From Candidatus Viadribacter manganicus (GTDB lineage: Bacteria > Pseudomonadota > Alphaproteobacteria > Caulobacterales > Aquidulcibacteraceae), in the NCBI RefSeq assembly GCF_001679665.1, contig NZ_CP013244.1, positions 1,992,980 through 2,056,979 on the forward strand: 64,000 nucleotides of DNA, in the 5' to 3' direction. The notes beneath the pieces were generated by a model. That model saw only the letters and a program-made list of their open reading frames with translations. It searched no databases and had not been told where the DNA came from. The translations under genes were made by a program, and so were the position numbers. Positions 536 to 63,406 of the stretch are shown here, piece after piece (position 1 is the first letter of the stretch; each line of letters opens with the position of its first letter).

Positions 536-1702
536 ATGAGTGCTGACCGTGATTATTACGAAGTGCTTGGCGTCGCGCGCGACGCTGACGCCACGACGAT
601 CAAATCAGCTTTTCGCAAACTGGCGATGAAGCTGCACCCGGACCAAAACCCGGGCTGCAAAGTCTCGGAAGATAAATTCAAAGAGCTTGGCGAAGCCTAC
701 GCCGTGCTTTCCGATCCGGAAAAGCGCGCTGCCTATGACCGCTATGGCAAAGCCGCATTTCAAGGCGGTGGACCAGGTGCAGGTGGCGGCTTCCACGGCG
801 CCGGCGCAGCTGACTTCTCCGATCTCTTCAATGAGATTTTCGGCGGCGGCTTCGAGGAAATGTTCTCGCGCGGTCGTGGCGGCGGACAGCGCAATGGTCC
901 TGCTCGCGGCGCAGATCTCCGCTACGACGTCGAGATCACGCTCGAGCAAGCCTTCCGCGGCAACGAACGCGAGATCGTCGTCCCGCGCGCACAAGCTTGT
1001 GAGCCCTGCAAAGGTTCGGGCTCGGAAGGCAACGCACCGCTCGAAACATGCGCCACCTGCCAAGGCGCCGGCCAAGTTCGCGCCCAGCAAGGCATGTTCC
1101 GCATGGTGCGCACCTGCCCTGCCTGCCACGGCCGTGGTCAATCGATCAAAACGCCGTGCCGTTCGTGCGGTGGGCGCGGGCAAACCCAAAAAGAGCGCAC
1201 GCTCTCGGTCAAGATCCCTGCTGGCGTCGAAGACGGCACGCGTATCCGTCTCTCCGGCGAGGGCGATGCTGGCGTTCGCGGCGGCCCAGCCGGAGATCTT
1301 TATCTCTTCCTCTCGGTGAAGCCGCACGCTCTGTTCGAGCGCGAAGGACCGGATCTCTACTGCCGCGCGCCCGCACCGATGGTGAAGGCAGCGCTGGGCG
1401 GTGAAATGGAAATCGCCACCATCGACGGCGAGCGCACCAAGATCGCCATTCCCGCGGGCGCACAGACCGGCCGGCGCTTCCGCGTCAAAGGCAAGGGAAT
1501 GACGCATCTACGCGGCAAGGATCGCGGTGATCTCCACGTCGAACTTTTGGTCGAAACGCCCGTGAACCTCACGGCGAAGCAGAAGAAACTGCTCGAAGAG
1601 TTCGCCAAAGATTGCAGCGAAGAAGCTCACCCGCAGACACAAGGCTTCTTCGACAGCATGAAGAAGTTCTTCGACGCCAACAGCGAACCGCCTGCGCGCT
1701 AA
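536..1702 (+). CDS. dnaJ: Co-chaperone DnaJ (Hsp40)
   Basis: Stimulates DnaK ATPase activity and delivers unfolded substrates. At 388 residues it has the full class I architecture. It has an N-terminal J domain with HPD at residues 34-36, then a Gly/Phe-rich linker (about 75-115). Four CxxCxGxG zinc repeats follow from about residue 155 to 225 (CEPCKGSG, CATCQGAG, CPACHGRG, CRSCGGRG), then the C-terminal substrate-binding domains. All eight zinc-binding cysteines are present. The ATG at 536 begins the J domain directly (MSADRDYYEVLGV). It follows dnaK and precedes dapB, the latter after a 36-base gap. Confidence 0.97.
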   Translation: MSADRDYYEVLGVARDADATTIKSAFRKLAMKLHPDQNPGCKVSEDKFKELGEAYAVLSDPEKRAAYDRYGKAAFQGGGPGAGGGFHGAGAADFSDLFNEIFGGGFEEMFSRGRGGGQRNGPARGADLRYDVEITLEQAFRGNEREIVVPRAQACEPCKGSGSEGNAPLETCATCQGAGQVRAQQGMFRMVRTCPACHGRGQSIKTPCRSCGGRGQTQKERTLSVKIPAGVEDGTRIRLSGEGDAGVRGGPAGDLYLFLSVKPHALFEREGPDLYCRAPAPMVKAALGGEMEIATIDGERTKIAIPAGAQTGRRFRVKGKGMTHLRGKDRGDLHVELLVETPVNLTAKQKKLLEEFAKDCSEEAHPQTQGFFDSMKKFFDANSEPPAR

Positions 1703-1738
1703 CTTGCCAGCCAGTGCGGCGCGGCTCACAACGGCGAT

Positions 1739-2545
1739 ATGACACTTTCCATCGCAATCGCCGGCGCTGGCGGCCGTATGGGCCGGGCGTTGGTGCGCGC
1801 GGCATCGGCTGATCCGCGCTTCCTCGTCTGCGGCGGCACCGAGCGTGGCGATGGCCAATTCCTCGGCATCGATCTTGGCGCGCTCGCGGGCGTCGCCCCG
1901 CTGATGATGAACGCCTCCGAGACCTCGAACCTCGCCGCCGACAAGGCCGAAGTCTGGATCGATTTCACAGCACCCAACGCAACCATCGAAGCGCTCGACG
2001 CCCTCGACGGCACGCCTGTCAAAGGCGCAATCATCGGCACTACCGGTCTTTCAGATGAGCAAGAAGCAAAGATCGCCGCTCACGCCGAACGCATCGCTAT
2101 CGTCCGCTCAGGCAATTTCAGTCTAGGCGTCAACCTGCTCGCGGCGCTCGTGGAACAAGCCGCGCAGCGCCTCGGTCCCGATTGGGACATTGAAATCACC
2201 GAAGCGCATCATCGGCGCAAGGTCGACGCGCCTTCAGGCACGGCCCTCCTCCTCGGCGACGCTGCCGCTCACGGGCGCAACGTGAAACTCTCCGACGCAC
2301 GCCTCAAGCCACACGACGGCATCACCGGTCCTCGGAAAGAAGGCGGCATCGGCTTCTCCGCAATTCGCGGCGGCGGCATCGTCGGCGATCACGACGTGCG
2401 CTTCATCGCCGAGCGCGAAGTCCTCACGCTTTCGCATCACGCCTCAGATCGCGCCGTGTTCGCGGATGGCGCTCTCGCCGCAGCGCTCTGGGTCGCAGAC
2501 AAACGCCCCGGCCTTTATTCGATGCGCGACGTATTGGGATTGTAA
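1739..2545 (+). CDS. dapB: 4-hydroxy-tetrahydrodipicolinate reductase DapB
   Basis: NAD(P)H-dependent reduction in the diaminopimelate/lysine pathway, supplying peptidoglycan and lysine precursors. The 268-residue length is normal for DapB. The nucleotide-binding loop GAGGRMGRAL is at residues 9-18. The catalytic/substrate block EAHHRRKVDAPSGTAL falls near residues 153-168, containing the His-His pair, the Lys and the PSGTA loop. The C-terminal half carries the conserved HHASDRAVFADGAL block. No strong Shine-Dalgarno sequence precedes the ATG, but the family N-terminus starts exactly here. Its last 31 bases overlap the convergent DUF2244 gene. Confidence 0.96.
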   Translation: MTLSIAIAGAGGRMGRALVRAASADPRFLVCGGTERGDGQFLGIDLGALAGVAPLMMNASETSNLAADKAEVWIDFTAPNATIEALDALDGTPVKGAIIGTTGLSDEQEAKIAAHAERIAIVRSGNFSLGVNLLAALVEQAAQRLGPDWDIEITEAHHRRKVDAPSGTALLLGDAAAHGRNVKLSDARLKPHDGITGPRKEGGIGFSAIRGGGIVGDHDVRFIAEREVLTLSHHASDRAVFADGALAAALWVADKRPGLYSMRDVLGL

Positions 2546-3036
2546 GGACCGCGCTTTGCCTTGCTGAGCGCCAGACTCAACGCTGCAGCAAACCCATCGC
2601 ATTCCTTCGGCGACAAGAACGCCCCAAGCCGCATTTGCCCTTCGCGCTCACGGATTAACACGCCACGTCCGTCGCGTGCGACTTGCGCCCATATCGGGTT
2701 CAACACCCAATGCGTTGCGATCCCGTCCTGATTCACCGCCGCGACATGCACCTTTCCCGGCGCAATCCGCACATATTCCGCGGCCTTCCCTGCGCGATAA
2801 TTGATCCAGTACGCCAGCCACAGCGCCAGTACATCCAGCCCCAGAAAGCCCGCGACCGGAAACGCACCCTGCACCCAGAAGAACAGCGCTACCGCCACAT
2901 TCACAGCGATCACGGCGACCAACATATATTTAAACGCCCGCGCACTCAGGCTTCGATGCGGACGCAGGCTTGCATCCATCAAAAGCGGTCCGTCCAAGAA
3001 CGGCGCGTCCGGTGAGCGTTCCCACGTCGGCCTCAT
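2515..3036 (-). CDS. DUF2244 family membrane protein
   Basis: A 173-residue predicted inner-membrane protein matching the DUF2244 family, which is common in alphaproteobacteria and of unknown function. Two adjacent hydrophobic helices lie near residues 40-85 (YMLVAVIAVNVAVALFF, then FLGLDVLALWLAYWI). They are followed by a soluble part with the family-like WVLNPIWAQV and a C-terminal SPKECDGFAAALSLAL. I chose the ATG at 3036 because MRPTWERSPDAPF begins the conserved part; the frame is open further upstream without another plausible start. It is convergent with dapB (31-base overlap) and divergent from nth (48-base gap). Confidence 0.8.
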   Translation of the reverse strand: MRPTWERSPDAPFLDGPLLMDASLRPHRSLSARAFKYMLVAVIAVNVAVALFFWVQGAFPVAGFLGLDVLALWLAYWINYRAGKAAEYVRIAPGKVHVAAVNQDGIATHWVLNPIWAQVARDGRGVLIREREGQMRLGAFLSPKECDGFAAALSLALSKAKRGPYNPNTSRIE

Positions 3037-3084
3037 GTCTCTAAGACTAACCCAGCAGCTTCGACTGCCAAGGATTGAAAACAC

Positions 3085-3783
3085 GTGGCCAAGCGCCTGA
3101 CCAAAGCCAAGGCCGAAGAGCTTTACGCCCGCCTCGCTCACGTGCGCCCAGACCCCAAGACCGAGCTGGACTACACCAACCCATATACGCTCCTCGTCGC
3201 CGTCGTACTCTCGGCCCAGGCGACCGATAAAGGCGTCAACCGCGCCACCGGCCCCCTCTTTCAGATCGCCGACACGCCGGCGAAAATGTTGAAGCTCGGC
3301 GAGGAGGGCGTGGCCGACCACATCAAGACGATCGGCCTCTGGCGCAACAAAGCCAAGAACGTCGTCGCGCTGAGTCAAAATCTGATCGACCAACACAACG
3401 GCGAAGTCCCGCGCGAACGCGACGCGCTCGAAGCCTTGCCCGGCGTTGGGCGGAAGACAGCAAACGTCGTGCTCATGGAAATTTTTGGCGAAGGCACAAT
3501 TGCGGTCGATACGCACGTGTTTCGCGTCGCCAACCGCACCGGATTGGCTTCAGGCACAACGCCCGCAGAGGTGGAAGATCAGTTGATGCGGATCACGCCG
3601 CCCAAGTACCTGCACGGCGCACACCACTGGCTGATCCTGCACGGACGCTACACGTGCTTAGCGCGCAAGCCAGAGTGCCCGCGCTGCGTCATTGCCGATC
3701 TTTGCGTGTTTCAGCCCAAGACACGTGCGATAGCGCCAACGAAAGCGTCCGCCCCTTCGGGCGCGAAATCGAAGAAGAGATAA
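3085..3783 (+). CDS. nth: Endonuclease III (base-excision repair glycosylase/AP lyase)
   Basis: Removes oxidised pyrimidines and cleaves at AP sites. At 232 residues it has the helix-hairpin-helix LPGVGRKTANVVL near residues 115-130, whose Lys is the catalytic nucleophile. VDTHVFRVANR near residue 140 holds the catalytic Asp. A C-x6-C-x2-C-x5-C [4Fe-4S] loop lies near residues 190-207 (CLARKPECPRCVIADLC). The start is GTG at 3085, preceded by AAGGA at about 3070. The Lys-rich C-terminus overlaps the convergent ATP-grasp gene by 73 bases, a long overlap for two intact genes. Confidence 0.96.
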   Translation: MAKRLTKAKAEELYARLAHVRPDPKTELDYTNPYTLLVAVVLSAQATDKGVNRATGPLFQIADTPAKMLKLGEEGVADHIKTIGLWRNKAKNVVALSQNLIDQHNGEVPRERDALEALPGVGRKTANVVLMEIFGEGTIAVDTHVFRVANRTGLASGTTPAEVEDQLMRITPPKYLHGAHHWLILHGRYTCLARKPECPRCVIADLCVFQPKTRAIAPTKASAPSGAKSKKR

Positions 3784-61543: not shown

Positions 61544-62794
61544 ATGAGCAATGGTCGCGGTTTCGACGCCGATGTGATTCTGAGCGGCGGCGGTCTGGTG
61601 GGGCAGACTTTGGCCCTGGCGCTGGATCAGGCGGGTTTATCCGTTGCGGTGATCGACGCTTCGAAGCCGGCGGAAACGCTGGCGCCGGCGTTTGACGGTC
61701 GCGCTTTCGCGATCGCGTTTGCCTCGTACCGGATGTGGCGGACGCTCGGGCTCGGCGCGCAACTTGATGAAGTAGCGCAGCCGATCGAACAGATCATGGT
61801 CACGGACGGCAAGCTCGGGCGCGGGCCGTCCTTGCTGCATCTCCATTTCGATCGCGCCGAGATGCGCGACACCGATGAGCCGCTTGGACTGATGCTGGAG
61901 GCGCGGCACGTGCGGCTGGCTCTGGATAGCGCCGTGAAGGCGCGGCCGAGCATCAATATGATCCAGCCGATGTCGGTGAGCGCGATTGAACGCGATCCGG
62001 CGGGCGCAAGCGTGACGCTGGCCGATGGCCGCAAGCTGCGCGCGCCGCTGCTGGTCGGCACCGATGGGCGCCGTTCGTTCGTCCGCGGCGCTGTTGGTAT
62101 CCGCACGATCGGTTGGGATTATCCGGTGACGGCGATCGTCACGACGATCAAGCACGAACGTTCGCATGGCGCGGTGGCGCATGAATTCTTCCTGCCGAAC
62201 GGACCGTTCGCGATTCTGCCGCTGAAAGGCGAGCGTTCGAACATCGTGTGGGCCGAACCGCGCGCGGCGGCGGAAGCGCTGCTGAAAATGAACGAAGCTG
62301 ATTTCATCGCCGAGTTGCGCAAGCGCTTCGGCGATTTCCTGGGCGAACTTTCGCTGGAAGGGCCGCGCTTTGGCTATCCGCTGTCGCTGCAATTGGCCGA
62401 GCGCATGATCGATCAGCGCGTTGTGCTCGCCGGCGATAGCGCGCACGGCATTCATCCGCTCGCCGGGCAAGGCTTGAACCTTGGCTTGAAGGATTGCGCG
62501 GCGCTCGCCGAATGCATCGCCGATGGCGTTTCTCTGGGCTTGGACCCTGGTGATGTCTCGATCCTCGAGCGTTATCAGCGCTGGCGGCGCTTCGATAACG
62601 TGACGATGGCGCTCGGCATGGAGTTTTTCGACAAGCTGTTCTCGAACGACATCAAGCCGCTTCGCGCGGCGCGCACATTGGGGCTCGCGGCTGTCAACGC
62701 CGTCGGCCCGGCCCGGCGTTTCTTCATGAAATACGCCGGCGGCGGCGCCGGCGATTTGCCGAAGCTGCTGCGCGGCGAAAGCTTGGCGGCTTAG
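61544..62794 (+). CDS. ubiH: UbiH/UbiF/COQ6-type FAD monooxygenase (ubiquinone synthesis)
   Basis: A 416-residue flavoprotein hydroxylase of the ubiquinone ring. The FAD loop VILSGGGLVGQTLALAL is at the N-terminus, the GTDGRRSFVRGAVG motif is near 168, and the second FAD motif VVLAGDSAHGIHPLAGQGLN is near 287 (HPxAGQGxN is the family signature). Which ring position it hydroxylates cannot be told within UbiH/UbiF/UbiI/UbiL. I chose the ATG at 61544 because the dinucleotide fold starts there; the frame is open much further upstream. Confidence 0.9.
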   Translation: MSNGRGFDADVILSGGGLVGQTLALALDQAGLSVAVIDASKPAETLAPAFDGRAFAIAFASYRMWRTLGLGAQLDEVAQPIEQIMVTDGKLGRGPSLLHLHFDRAEMRDTDEPLGLMLEARHVRLALDSAVKARPSINMIQPMSVSAIERDPAGASVTLADGRKLRAPLLVGTDGRRSFVRGAVGIRTIGWDYPVTAIVTTIKHERSHGAVAHEFFLPNGPFAILPLKGERSNIVWAEPRAAAEALLKMNEADFIAELRKRFGDFLGELSLEGPRFGYPLSLQLAERMIDQRVVLAGDSAHGIHPLAGQGLNLGLKDCAALAECIADGVSLGLDPGDVSILERYQRWRRFDNVTMALGMEFFDKLFSNDIKPLRAARTLGLAAVNAVGPARRFFMKYAGGGAGDLPKLLRGESLAA

Positions 62795-62895
62795 TTTTCG
62801 CTCGTCGGTACCGTGTCGGCAGGGATCAGCGCCAGTAACGCCGCAAGCCCGAGGTAGGGCGCGAGTGCGAGTAGCGGTGTGAAAATCTCGCTCAT
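62791..62895 (-). CDS. Putative 34-residue membrane peptide
   Basis: MSEIFTPLLALAPYLGLAAL begins a 34-residue frame with a single hydrophobic helix and an acidic tail ending PTSEN. Its TAA shares three bases with the ubiH stop (TTAG). The ribosome-binding site is weak. It lies beyond the hairpin that follows the two micropeptide genes. The composition is membrane-like, but real expression is uncertain. Confidence 0.35.
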   Translation of the reverse strand: MSEIFTPLLALAPYLGLAALLALIPADTVPTSEN

Positions 62896-62982
62896 GGGGT
62901 TCTGCTCGGTCGCGAAGCTCGAACAACTTTGCCCATGAGACTGCGTTCCGGGGGAACCTGATGTTCCGCGTTTCAGACATGC

Positions 62983-63019
62983 GAAGAGCGCGAAGGGGGA
63001 GCAATCCTTCGCGCTCTTC
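62983..63019. terminator. 14-bp perfect hairpin downstream of the micropeptide pair
   Basis: GAAGAGCGCGAAGG (62983-62996) pairs perfectly with CCTTCGCGCTCTTC (63006-63019). There is little T-richness on either side, so it may be a terminator or an mRNA-end stabiliser for the minus-strand micropeptide transcript. Confidence 0.5.
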
Positions 63020-63074
63020 TGTCGTCCAAGGCCGCGCTATCTGGGGCCAGAAGGATCGTGCTGCTTTTGGGAGC

Positions 63075-63167
63075 TTAAGCGACGATCTGCGCGGCTTGGG
63101 TCATCACGCTGAGGGCGACCGGAGCAAACACGGCGCAGGCAGCGATGAGGGCGAAAAATTTGGTCAT
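63075..63167 (-). CDS. 30-residue membrane micropeptide, copy 1 of a tandem pair
   Basis: Begins MTKFFALIAACAVFAP and ends QAAQIVA; one hydrophobic helix covering most of the chain. It aligns without gaps over all 30 residues to the neighbouring peptide at 63221-63313, with 16 identities (MTKF, L, A, A, AP, A, M, QAA, VA). Equal length, same strand and conserved ends argue that both are translated and homologous. Function unknown. The upstream ribosome-binding site is weak, so coupling to copy 2 is possible. A 14-base palindrome lies between them. Confidence 0.65.
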   Translation of the reverse strand: MTKFFALIAACAVFAPVALSVMTQAAQIVA

Positions 63168-63179
63168 TGGATGAGCTTT

Positions 63180-63193
63180 CAAATTCGAATTTG
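63180..63193. promoter_or_regulatory. Perfect 14-base palindrome between the two micropeptide genes
   Basis: CAAATTCGAATTTG. A/T-rich and symmetric, 13 bases before the start of copy 1 on the minus strand. Possible operator or RNA processing site. Confidence 0.35.
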
Positions 63194-63220
63194 TTTAAGG
63201 ATGAGTGCGGCGGCGATCGC

Positions 63221-63313
63221 TTAGGCGACCATCATCGCGGCTTGGTGCATCGTGGCCCAGGCCATCGGGGCTAACAAAGCCGCCGCCAACATCAGGGAAT
63301 AAAACTTTGTCAT
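63221..63313 (-). CDS. 30-residue membrane micropeptide, copy 2 of a tandem pair
   Basis: Begins MTKFYSLMLAAALLAP and ends HQAAMMVA; hydrophobic and Met-rich. GAGGAG lies nine bases before the ATG, a good ribosome-binding site. It is the first gene of the pair on the minus strand, 53 bases before copy 1. A perfect TGTGA-N6-TCACA operator lies about 80 bases upstream. It resembles a short single-pass membrane protein or an uncleaved signal-like peptide; no known family recognised. Confidence 0.68.
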   Translation of the reverse strand: MTKFYSLMLAAALLAPMAWATMHQAAMMVA

Positions 63314-63390
63314 TGCTCTTGCTCCTCTTGGTGAGACCCGATGGCCTCATCTTCGATGAGGAGAAGGTAGCTGTGCGTTGACCTTATCGC

Positions 63391-63406
63391 TGTGACGGTG
63401 GTCACA
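63391..63406. promoter_or_regulatory. CRP/FNR-family operator upstream of the micropeptide genes
   Basis: TGTGACGGTGGTCACA contains exactly TGTGA-N6-TCACA, the CRP consensus half-sites, in a fully symmetric 16-mer apart from its centre. Ten fixed bases are expected about 0.06 times by chance in 64 kb. On the minus strand a -10-like GATAAG (63388-63383) or TACCTT (63369-63364) follows; with the latter, the operator centre would be at about -41.5 from the start, the class II activator position. Confidence 0.55.

Follow-up and report, generated by a model that had tools for sequence, protein, structure and literature searches.

The pair of 30-codon open reading frames (ORFs) described here lies in the window, the whole 64,000-nucleotide stretch of Candidatus Viadribacter manganicus DNA that was analyzed, and is best explained as one transcription unit of a multi-copy peptide family. 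We read this family as a new micropeptide regulon that is likely cyclic-nucleotide controlled. According to this explanation, to which we assign a joint probability of roughly 0.6, the family would be a regulon under a CRP-type activator, and its products would be membrane peptides with the N-terminus in, acting via their C-terminal tail. Comparison of sequences established the family, the near-fixed length of its peptides, the selection acting on them, the constant spacing between a palindrome and a -10 box, and a covarying hairpin in most two-copy units. The preliminary description of the pair was right but understated the case: how large the family is, its common promoter, its candidate regulator, and the hairpin in the RNA all went unnoticed.

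The micropeptide pair and its family

ORF1 (63221-63313, minus strand) encoded the 30-residue micropeptide MTKFYSLMLAAALLAPMAWATMHQAAMMVA and ORF2 (63075-63167, minus strand) the 30-residue micropeptide MTKFFALIAACAVFAPVALSVMTQAAQIVA, each in 30 codons plus a stop codon, with homologues and signs of selection for both. Coordinates and alignment confirmed that the two same-strand frames lie 53 bases apart and share 16 of 30 residues without a gap. The GAGGAG-type site that had been noted for one of the frames was likewise present, as the ORF1 ribosome-binding site GAGGAGCAAGAG at 63316-63327 (minus strand), read from the sequence; the ribosome site of ORF2 was a weak purine stretch only. As regards a mobile-element origin, two relatives retained the window unit in one block (62981-63406), and the flanks fetched from them did not match the window's neighbor gene. 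In an alignment of the unit with genomes G003 and G007, conservation spanned the stretch between palindrome and hairpin and extended little further. A 34-residue hydrophobic ORF, MSEIFTPLLALAPYLGLAALLALIPADTVPTSEN, at window positions 62791-62895 on the minus strand, overlapped the 3' end of a ubiH-like gene and by eye was unlike the family.

The paralogues that the preliminary description had proposed to look for were found with ORF1 as the query. The organism's own genome (G000; one contig, 3.73 Mb) held ten family copies at six places, comprising the window pair and one other pair, an array of three copies, and three copies standing alone. ORF1 matched itself with an E value of 1.6e-13, its best paralogue with 1.3e-8, and ORF2 with 8.5e-4. 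The family peptides in this genome were 30 to 35 residues long, and one copy carried a five-residue N-terminal extension.

Within the family-level bacterial group, the family was present in 34 of 60 genomes at E ≤ 1e-5, with 1 to 23 copies each, and the highest count, 26 copies at E ≤ 0.1, came from one relative in that group. A search of 41 genomes (the own genome, 24 of the same genus, and 16 from other families of the order) returned matches in 24 of the 25 genomes of the genus and in 2 of the 16 others, all of the latter at E > 0.1. Across the order, 73 of 249 genomes matched at E ≤ 0.1. The genus accounted for 22 of them and the rest of the family-level group for 10; 41 lay outside that group. 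These 41 genomes had E values of 0.0014 or worse, and all but one had a single match. Their rate was above that expected by chance (ca. ten per hundred genomes at E ≤ 0.1, with at most 198 such genomes searched), and we suppose that these weak matches perhaps reflect a signal-peptide-like composition; two of the loci concerned (L058 and L060) gave no score in our own family scan. Outside the family-level group, no searched genome passed E ≤ 0.001, and in a class-wide search of 385 genomes the own genome alone matched at that threshold. Scanning named species genomes by pattern, a method limited to close relatives, found 72 loci, all labeled Hyphomonadaceae, Caulobacterales, Caulobacteraceae, Alphaproteobacteria, or Terricaulis.

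The three family peptides that were compared with Pfam, NCBIfam, and PADLOC had no match at E ≤ 1, and neither did the family profile in the PDB. PHROGs returned a single match, for ORF2 (E 0.074), which was dismissed. A literature search aimed at such peptides gave no report of the family among the matches listed. The loci fetched for closer comparison yielded 143 members in 82 units, of which 42 were two-copy units, and represent a part of all copies in all genomes. Arrays of three to five copies adjoined a gene that by eye was penicillin-binding-protein-like (L083 in G000, L078 in G019, and L090 in G024). At two loci (L073 and L095, from G019 and G024), a divergent second member with an N-terminal extension ended in NQIA instead of the usual tail.

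The proposal that a tandem pair of fixed length implies function was supported by conservation, kept length, and purifying selection. Neither an absence of conservation nor interrupting stop codons in orthologues was encountered; the family was conserved, and no internal stop occurred among the relatives listed, though the search reads through stops. The ratio pN/pS was 0.37 over 126 distinct ungapped family coding sequences (members below 36 bits or not gapless over the full length were left out, so that 127 of the 143 were kept, 126 of them distinct), versus 1.06 and 1.73 in the other two forward frames and 1.08, 0.60, and 1.82 in the reverse frames. Among 173 close pairs, pS was 0.235 versus a pN of 0.025. 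The peptides are under strong purifying selection, and P16, A18, Q24, A25, and A26 were nearly invariant in the 126 coding sequences.

Ribosome sites differed with position in the unit. GGAG, GAGG, AGGA, or GGGA stood before 76 of the 82 first ORFs; among the second ORFs of two-copy units, 6 of 42 had a GGAG-type site and 35 of 42 had a site only by a loose purine criterion. The best match in another genome stood at the same position for 38 of 42 first and 38 of 42 second ORFs, which suggests that first and second ORFs are two kept lineages. Likeness within a pair (19.5 of 30) was as high as that between same-position members across genomes (19.3), and some exchange within pairs is therefore likely.

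The common promoter and its candidate regulator

Upstream of ORF1, the minus strand carried the CRP-type palindrome GTGACCACCGTCAC at 63392-63405, one of 11 exact sites in the genome, followed after 22 bases by the -10 box TACCTT (63364-63369). The transcription start predicted from this -10 box lies at 63357 (minus strand), placing the center of the palindrome at ca. -41.5, the position of a class II CRP site. The same arrangement headed nearly the whole family. GTGAC-N4-GTCAC with at most one mismatch was found in 78 of the 82 fetched units (exact in 50, where it sat 78 to 107 bases ahead of the start codon), and a -10 box of the form TA-N2-[TG][TC] followed at identical spacing in 73 of these 78. 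The family units of G022, G207, and G216 had no palindrome. In the own genome, the 11 exact palindromes, versus 2 for a reversed-pattern control, included six at the six family places. When the pattern was relaxed, 27 palindromes were found (control 12), and only the six family promoters carried the -10 box, there of the form TA-N2-TT; the 21 others, five of them exact, had none at the right place and were set aside. As the six places carry the same palindrome, a single cAMP-type regulator likely turns them all on together.

The constant spacing between palindrome and -10 box therefore yielded a prediction that could fail, and it was by promoter that the units of G061 (genus g15) were found. 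The sequence profile gave weak matches in this genome (best E 0.0015). Of its 20 exact palindromes, 16 had the -10 box, and in 15 of these the ORF that followed was exactly 30 codons long and had a purine-rich ribosome site; in the remaining one its length was 53. The 14 distinct G061 peptides kept R3, A10, A25, and A26 and mostly V29 and A30, with the proline at position 20 (16 in genus g1) and with K, T, V, or A at position 24, so that Q24 was not kept. The promoter alone thus predicts divergent family members. In G185, three of eight palindrome sites led to peptides of 33, 33, and 41 residues, and in G216, one of 11 exact palindromes had the -10 box and led to no similar peptide.

In the own genome, 12 proteins of the CRP helix-turn-helix family were over the cut-off, three of them with an R-E-x-V-x-R recognition helix (by eye), a helix that a reading rule links to GTGA. 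The candidate regulator, at G000:661588-662274, had orthologues (E < 1e-40) in 35 of the 60 genomes and contained a cNMP_binding domain. Its best sequence matches in the PDB were CRP/FNR-family chains, aligned through "GASRExVN", which we take to be mycobacterial Crp. For mycobacterial Crp, the reported binding site is TGTGA-N6-TCACA (PMC4218801), and for the alphaproteobacterial Clr the reported core motif is GTNNCNNNNGNNAC, at distances resembling those of class I and class II sites (PMC10127613). The second CRP-type gene, L118, whose recognition helix is similar, was rejected as the candidate; its distribution was patchy (14 of 60 genomes) and did not track the family. The third (L120) was a homologue of L118.

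The presence of the regulator followed that of the family. Both were found in 31 of the 60 genomes, the regulator only in 4, the family only in 3, and neither in 22, giving a Fisher p of 2.8e-9, a value that ignores phylogeny, presence following a few sister genera. The three genomes with the family and no detected regulator were G012, G013, and G230, two of which were less than 85% complete. Those with the regulator and no profile-detected family were G061, G185, G202, and G148, and G061 and G185 have divergent members by promoter. Palindromes outnumbered the reversed-pattern control by 312 to 46 in regulator-positive genomes, versus 72 to 50 in the rest; G135, with 8 palindromes versus a control of 0, had no regulator match.

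Of 12 regulator loci, four (G000, G009, G021, and G061) also had a family-type promoter in the flanks that were fetched, and the other eight had none. The promoter was always within 2.4 kb: ca. 2.3 kb away in G000 and G009 and ca. 150 bases away in G021, whereas in G061 promoter and micropeptide immediately preceded the regulator gene on its own strand. At a generous density, 0.24 such linkages would be expected by chance for all twelve loci. Because the linkage in G000 and G061 was known before the loci were chosen, it is weaker evidence, and the unbiased count is 2 of 10. Three ORFs beside the regulator were tested for a nucleotide cyclase domain, with a match in G061 and G084 and none in G153. 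From these sequence comparisons, we consider it highly probable that the family forms one regulon under one CRP-type activator, likely cyclic-nucleotide controlled.

Several other genes were seen near the regulator. In G000, it lay directly downstream of a DNA methyltransferase gene that by eye resembled CcrM (L082, 2441-3529). A gene for an exported, M1-type-like peptidase (by eye) stood between the regulator and the linked 35-residue micropeptide in G000 (L277, 4668-6530) and G009 (L273, 3812-5683). In G185, an S49 (SppA-type) peptidase gene lay ca. 40 bases downstream of the regulator on the same strand (L272, G185:C181, about 1027-3716).

Peptide topology, RNA hairpin, and alternative explanations

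The family peptides had a hydrophobic core with a basic residue near the N-terminus, and in 99 of 107 acidic residues were absent and a single basic residue was present (107 of 109 peptides were kept, those whose stop fell at position 30 being left out). With small residues at -3 and -1, they have the features of a Sec signal sequence: a positive n-region, a hydrophobic core, and small residues before the cleavage point. As the peptides are short and hydrophobic, with one basic and no acidic residue, an inner-membrane location is predicted, with the conserved tail outside. The commonest tail was TLNQAAQIVA, and the tail was more conserved than the core (mean entropy 0.90 versus 1.35). We find it probable that the peptides are targeted to the membrane. 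The earlier reading of a small membrane peptide was thus strengthened as to membrane targeting, at the level of sequence, by the N-terminal positive residue, the lack of acidic residues, and the hydrophobic core. The companion suggestion, the tail of a subunit of a membrane complex, was disfavored, as was a small subunit of the CydX or KdpF kind: in four genomes, judged by eye, the ORFs did not lie in the operon of a complex, and the neighbors varied from place to place.

At the 3' end of the window unit, a terminator-like hairpin (62983-63019, minus strand) had a 14-bp stem, no T run after it, and the loop ATTGCTCCC, complementary in sequence to the GGAGCAA within the ribosome site of ORF1. 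Immediately behind the ORF2 stop codon stood GCTCCC (63069-63074, minus strand), the complement of a GGGAGC-type ribosome site, and 21 of the 42 two-copy units had GCTCC or CTCCC no more than 12 bases beyond their last stop. GCUCC stood in or at the hairpin loop in 30 of 42 two-copy units; among 32 single-copy units it did so in four, one of which counted only through the flank, and 12 of the 32 single-copy hairpins had a GNRA tetraloop. Among 32 distinct hairpins of the GCUCC class (a few of them single-copy), at least three Watson-Crick pair types were found at seven of 14 stem positions, with up to four types at a position, and GCUCC was kept in every loop but one (GCGC). In 28 of 42 two-copy units, six or more bases around the loop were complementary to the ribosome site of the same unit (commonly GGAGCA); the figure for single-copy units was 3 of 32. 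Each copy in the three-copy array of the own genome had a terminator-like hairpin after it. An Rfam scan of 901 bases gave one weak match far below the gathering score, which was dismissed. The complementarity suggests that the hairpin loop may give feedback on translation.

In the mechanism that we propose, the regulator at G000:661588-662274 and its orthologues would, when loaded with cAMP or cGMP, bind the palindrome and act as class II activators. RNA polymerase would then make a transcript of ca. 380 nt from the window unit, and both ORF1 and ORF2 would be translated. K3, the hydrophobic core, and the P-x-A-x-A segment would target the chain to the inner membrane with the N-terminus in, so that the tail would face the periplasm; it would either remain the end of a single helix or be cut loose by signal peptidase I. 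Through this conserved C-terminal periplasmic tail, the peptides would serve as small regulators or, if released, as signals. The hairpin loop of a two-copy unit would also bind GGAGCA ribosome sites, both in its own unit and in others, providing feedback or a second function at the RNA level. A bolder picture is speculative, and we consider it rather unlikely. In it, ten or more small transcripts would be turned on by a cyclase together with a dedicated CRP, tails of 10 to 12 residues would be released outside the inner membrane as a signal, and the RNA loops of two-copy units would limit translation of the family.

Other explanations weigh the same features differently. The peptides could be exported signals or effectors, residues 1-20 being a Sec signal peptide and signal peptidase I cutting after A-x-A to release a 10-residue peptide to the periplasm or the medium. 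The (-3,-1) rule, read from the sequence, held at positions 18 and 20 in 102 of 107 peptides, and the stronger conservation of the tail over the core agrees with export. G061 has an A-x-A-like pair at 16 and 18 in 12 of 14 distinct peptides, and a site was therefore kept there though the proline moved. However, position 20 was V or P in 5 of 126 coding sequences, a chain of 30 residues is very short for Sec export, and the S49 signal-peptide-peptidase-type gene that follows the regulator in G185, which could be counted in favor, was seen as a neighbor in that one genome only. We hold export to be a minority possibility, and release of the tail by cleavage to be doubtful. Less probable again is a dual-function RNA whose main effector is the 3' hairpin, with the GCUCC(C) loop pairing with GGAG-type ribosome sites in trans and the peptides secondary. 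The covarying stem that keeps GCUCC in its loop (30 of 42 two-copy units) and the excess of complementarity to the own ribosome site in two-copy units fit such an RNA, as does the precedent of VcdRP, reported to be CRP-linked, with a 29-residue peptide and a C-run in the pairing site (PMC8672173). Nevertheless, purifying selection acts on the peptide, and 28 of the 32 single-copy units have no GCUCC loop, making this account improbable.

The type I toxin that the preliminary description had suggested, a hydrophobic peptide that would damage the membrane unless restrained by an antisense RNA, fits the small size, hydrophobicity, and copy number of the partly tandem family, and nothing positive was found beyond these. 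A single common activator-type promoter heads nearly all units, and a GGAG-type ribosome site precedes 76 of 82 first ORFs; both speak weakly against a toxin, which we judge very improbable. That the pair represents chance open frames in GC-rich DNA could be argued from the many short frames in the window, but it is refuted by homologues with kept length, selection, promoter, and ribosome site, and its probability is negligible.

Known systems and significance

Among known systems, Ldr and Ibs are type I toxins that are short, hydrophobic, and multi-copy, with some copies in tandem. The family shares short hydrophobic peptides in several copies, some of them tandem, and differs in having one common activator-type promoter and a conserved C-terminal tail. 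CcsR RNAs carry a C-rich motif, and a CIN1/DUF1127-CcsR locus was considered and rejected, as neither DUF1127 nor any other Pfam family matched the three peptides compared at E ≤ 1. The CIN1 locus resembles the family in having a small ORF upstream of a structured RNA on one transcript in alphaproteobacteria; it has DUF1127 and an RpoH promoter, whereas the family has a CRP-type promoter and no DUF1127 (PMC10253847).

From this comparison, the family would seem to work most like VcdRP of Vibrio cholerae, a CRP-repressed dual-function RNA whose 29-residue peptide binds citrate synthase (PMC8672173). Both combine a peptide of about this size (29 residues in VcdRP) on a small transcript with CRP involvement and a C-rich pairing site in the 3' part. 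In contrast, CRP represses VcdRP, and the family has a predicted activator site, many dispersed copies, and membrane-type peptides. Clr, the cAMP/cGMP receptor of Sinorhizobium meliloti, offers a likeness on the side of the promoter, as its core site GTNNCNNNNGNNAC covers GTGACNNNNGTCAC and lies at class I-like and class II-like distances; Clr is reported to have hundreds of candidate sites, whereas the correctly spaced sites found in the own genome head micropeptide units only (PMC10127613).

Small membrane peptides, CRP sites, and anti-ribosome-site loops each have precedents. In the literature searched, no precedent was found, among the matches listed, for a regulon whose correctly spaced sites found all head micropeptide copies. 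Our findings add a large gene family in the 30-codon range, confined to one family-level bacterial group in the searches made, and an unseen gene class thereby becomes testable. They also raise the question of why one cell should maintain a 30-residue peptide in ten to twenty-six copies.
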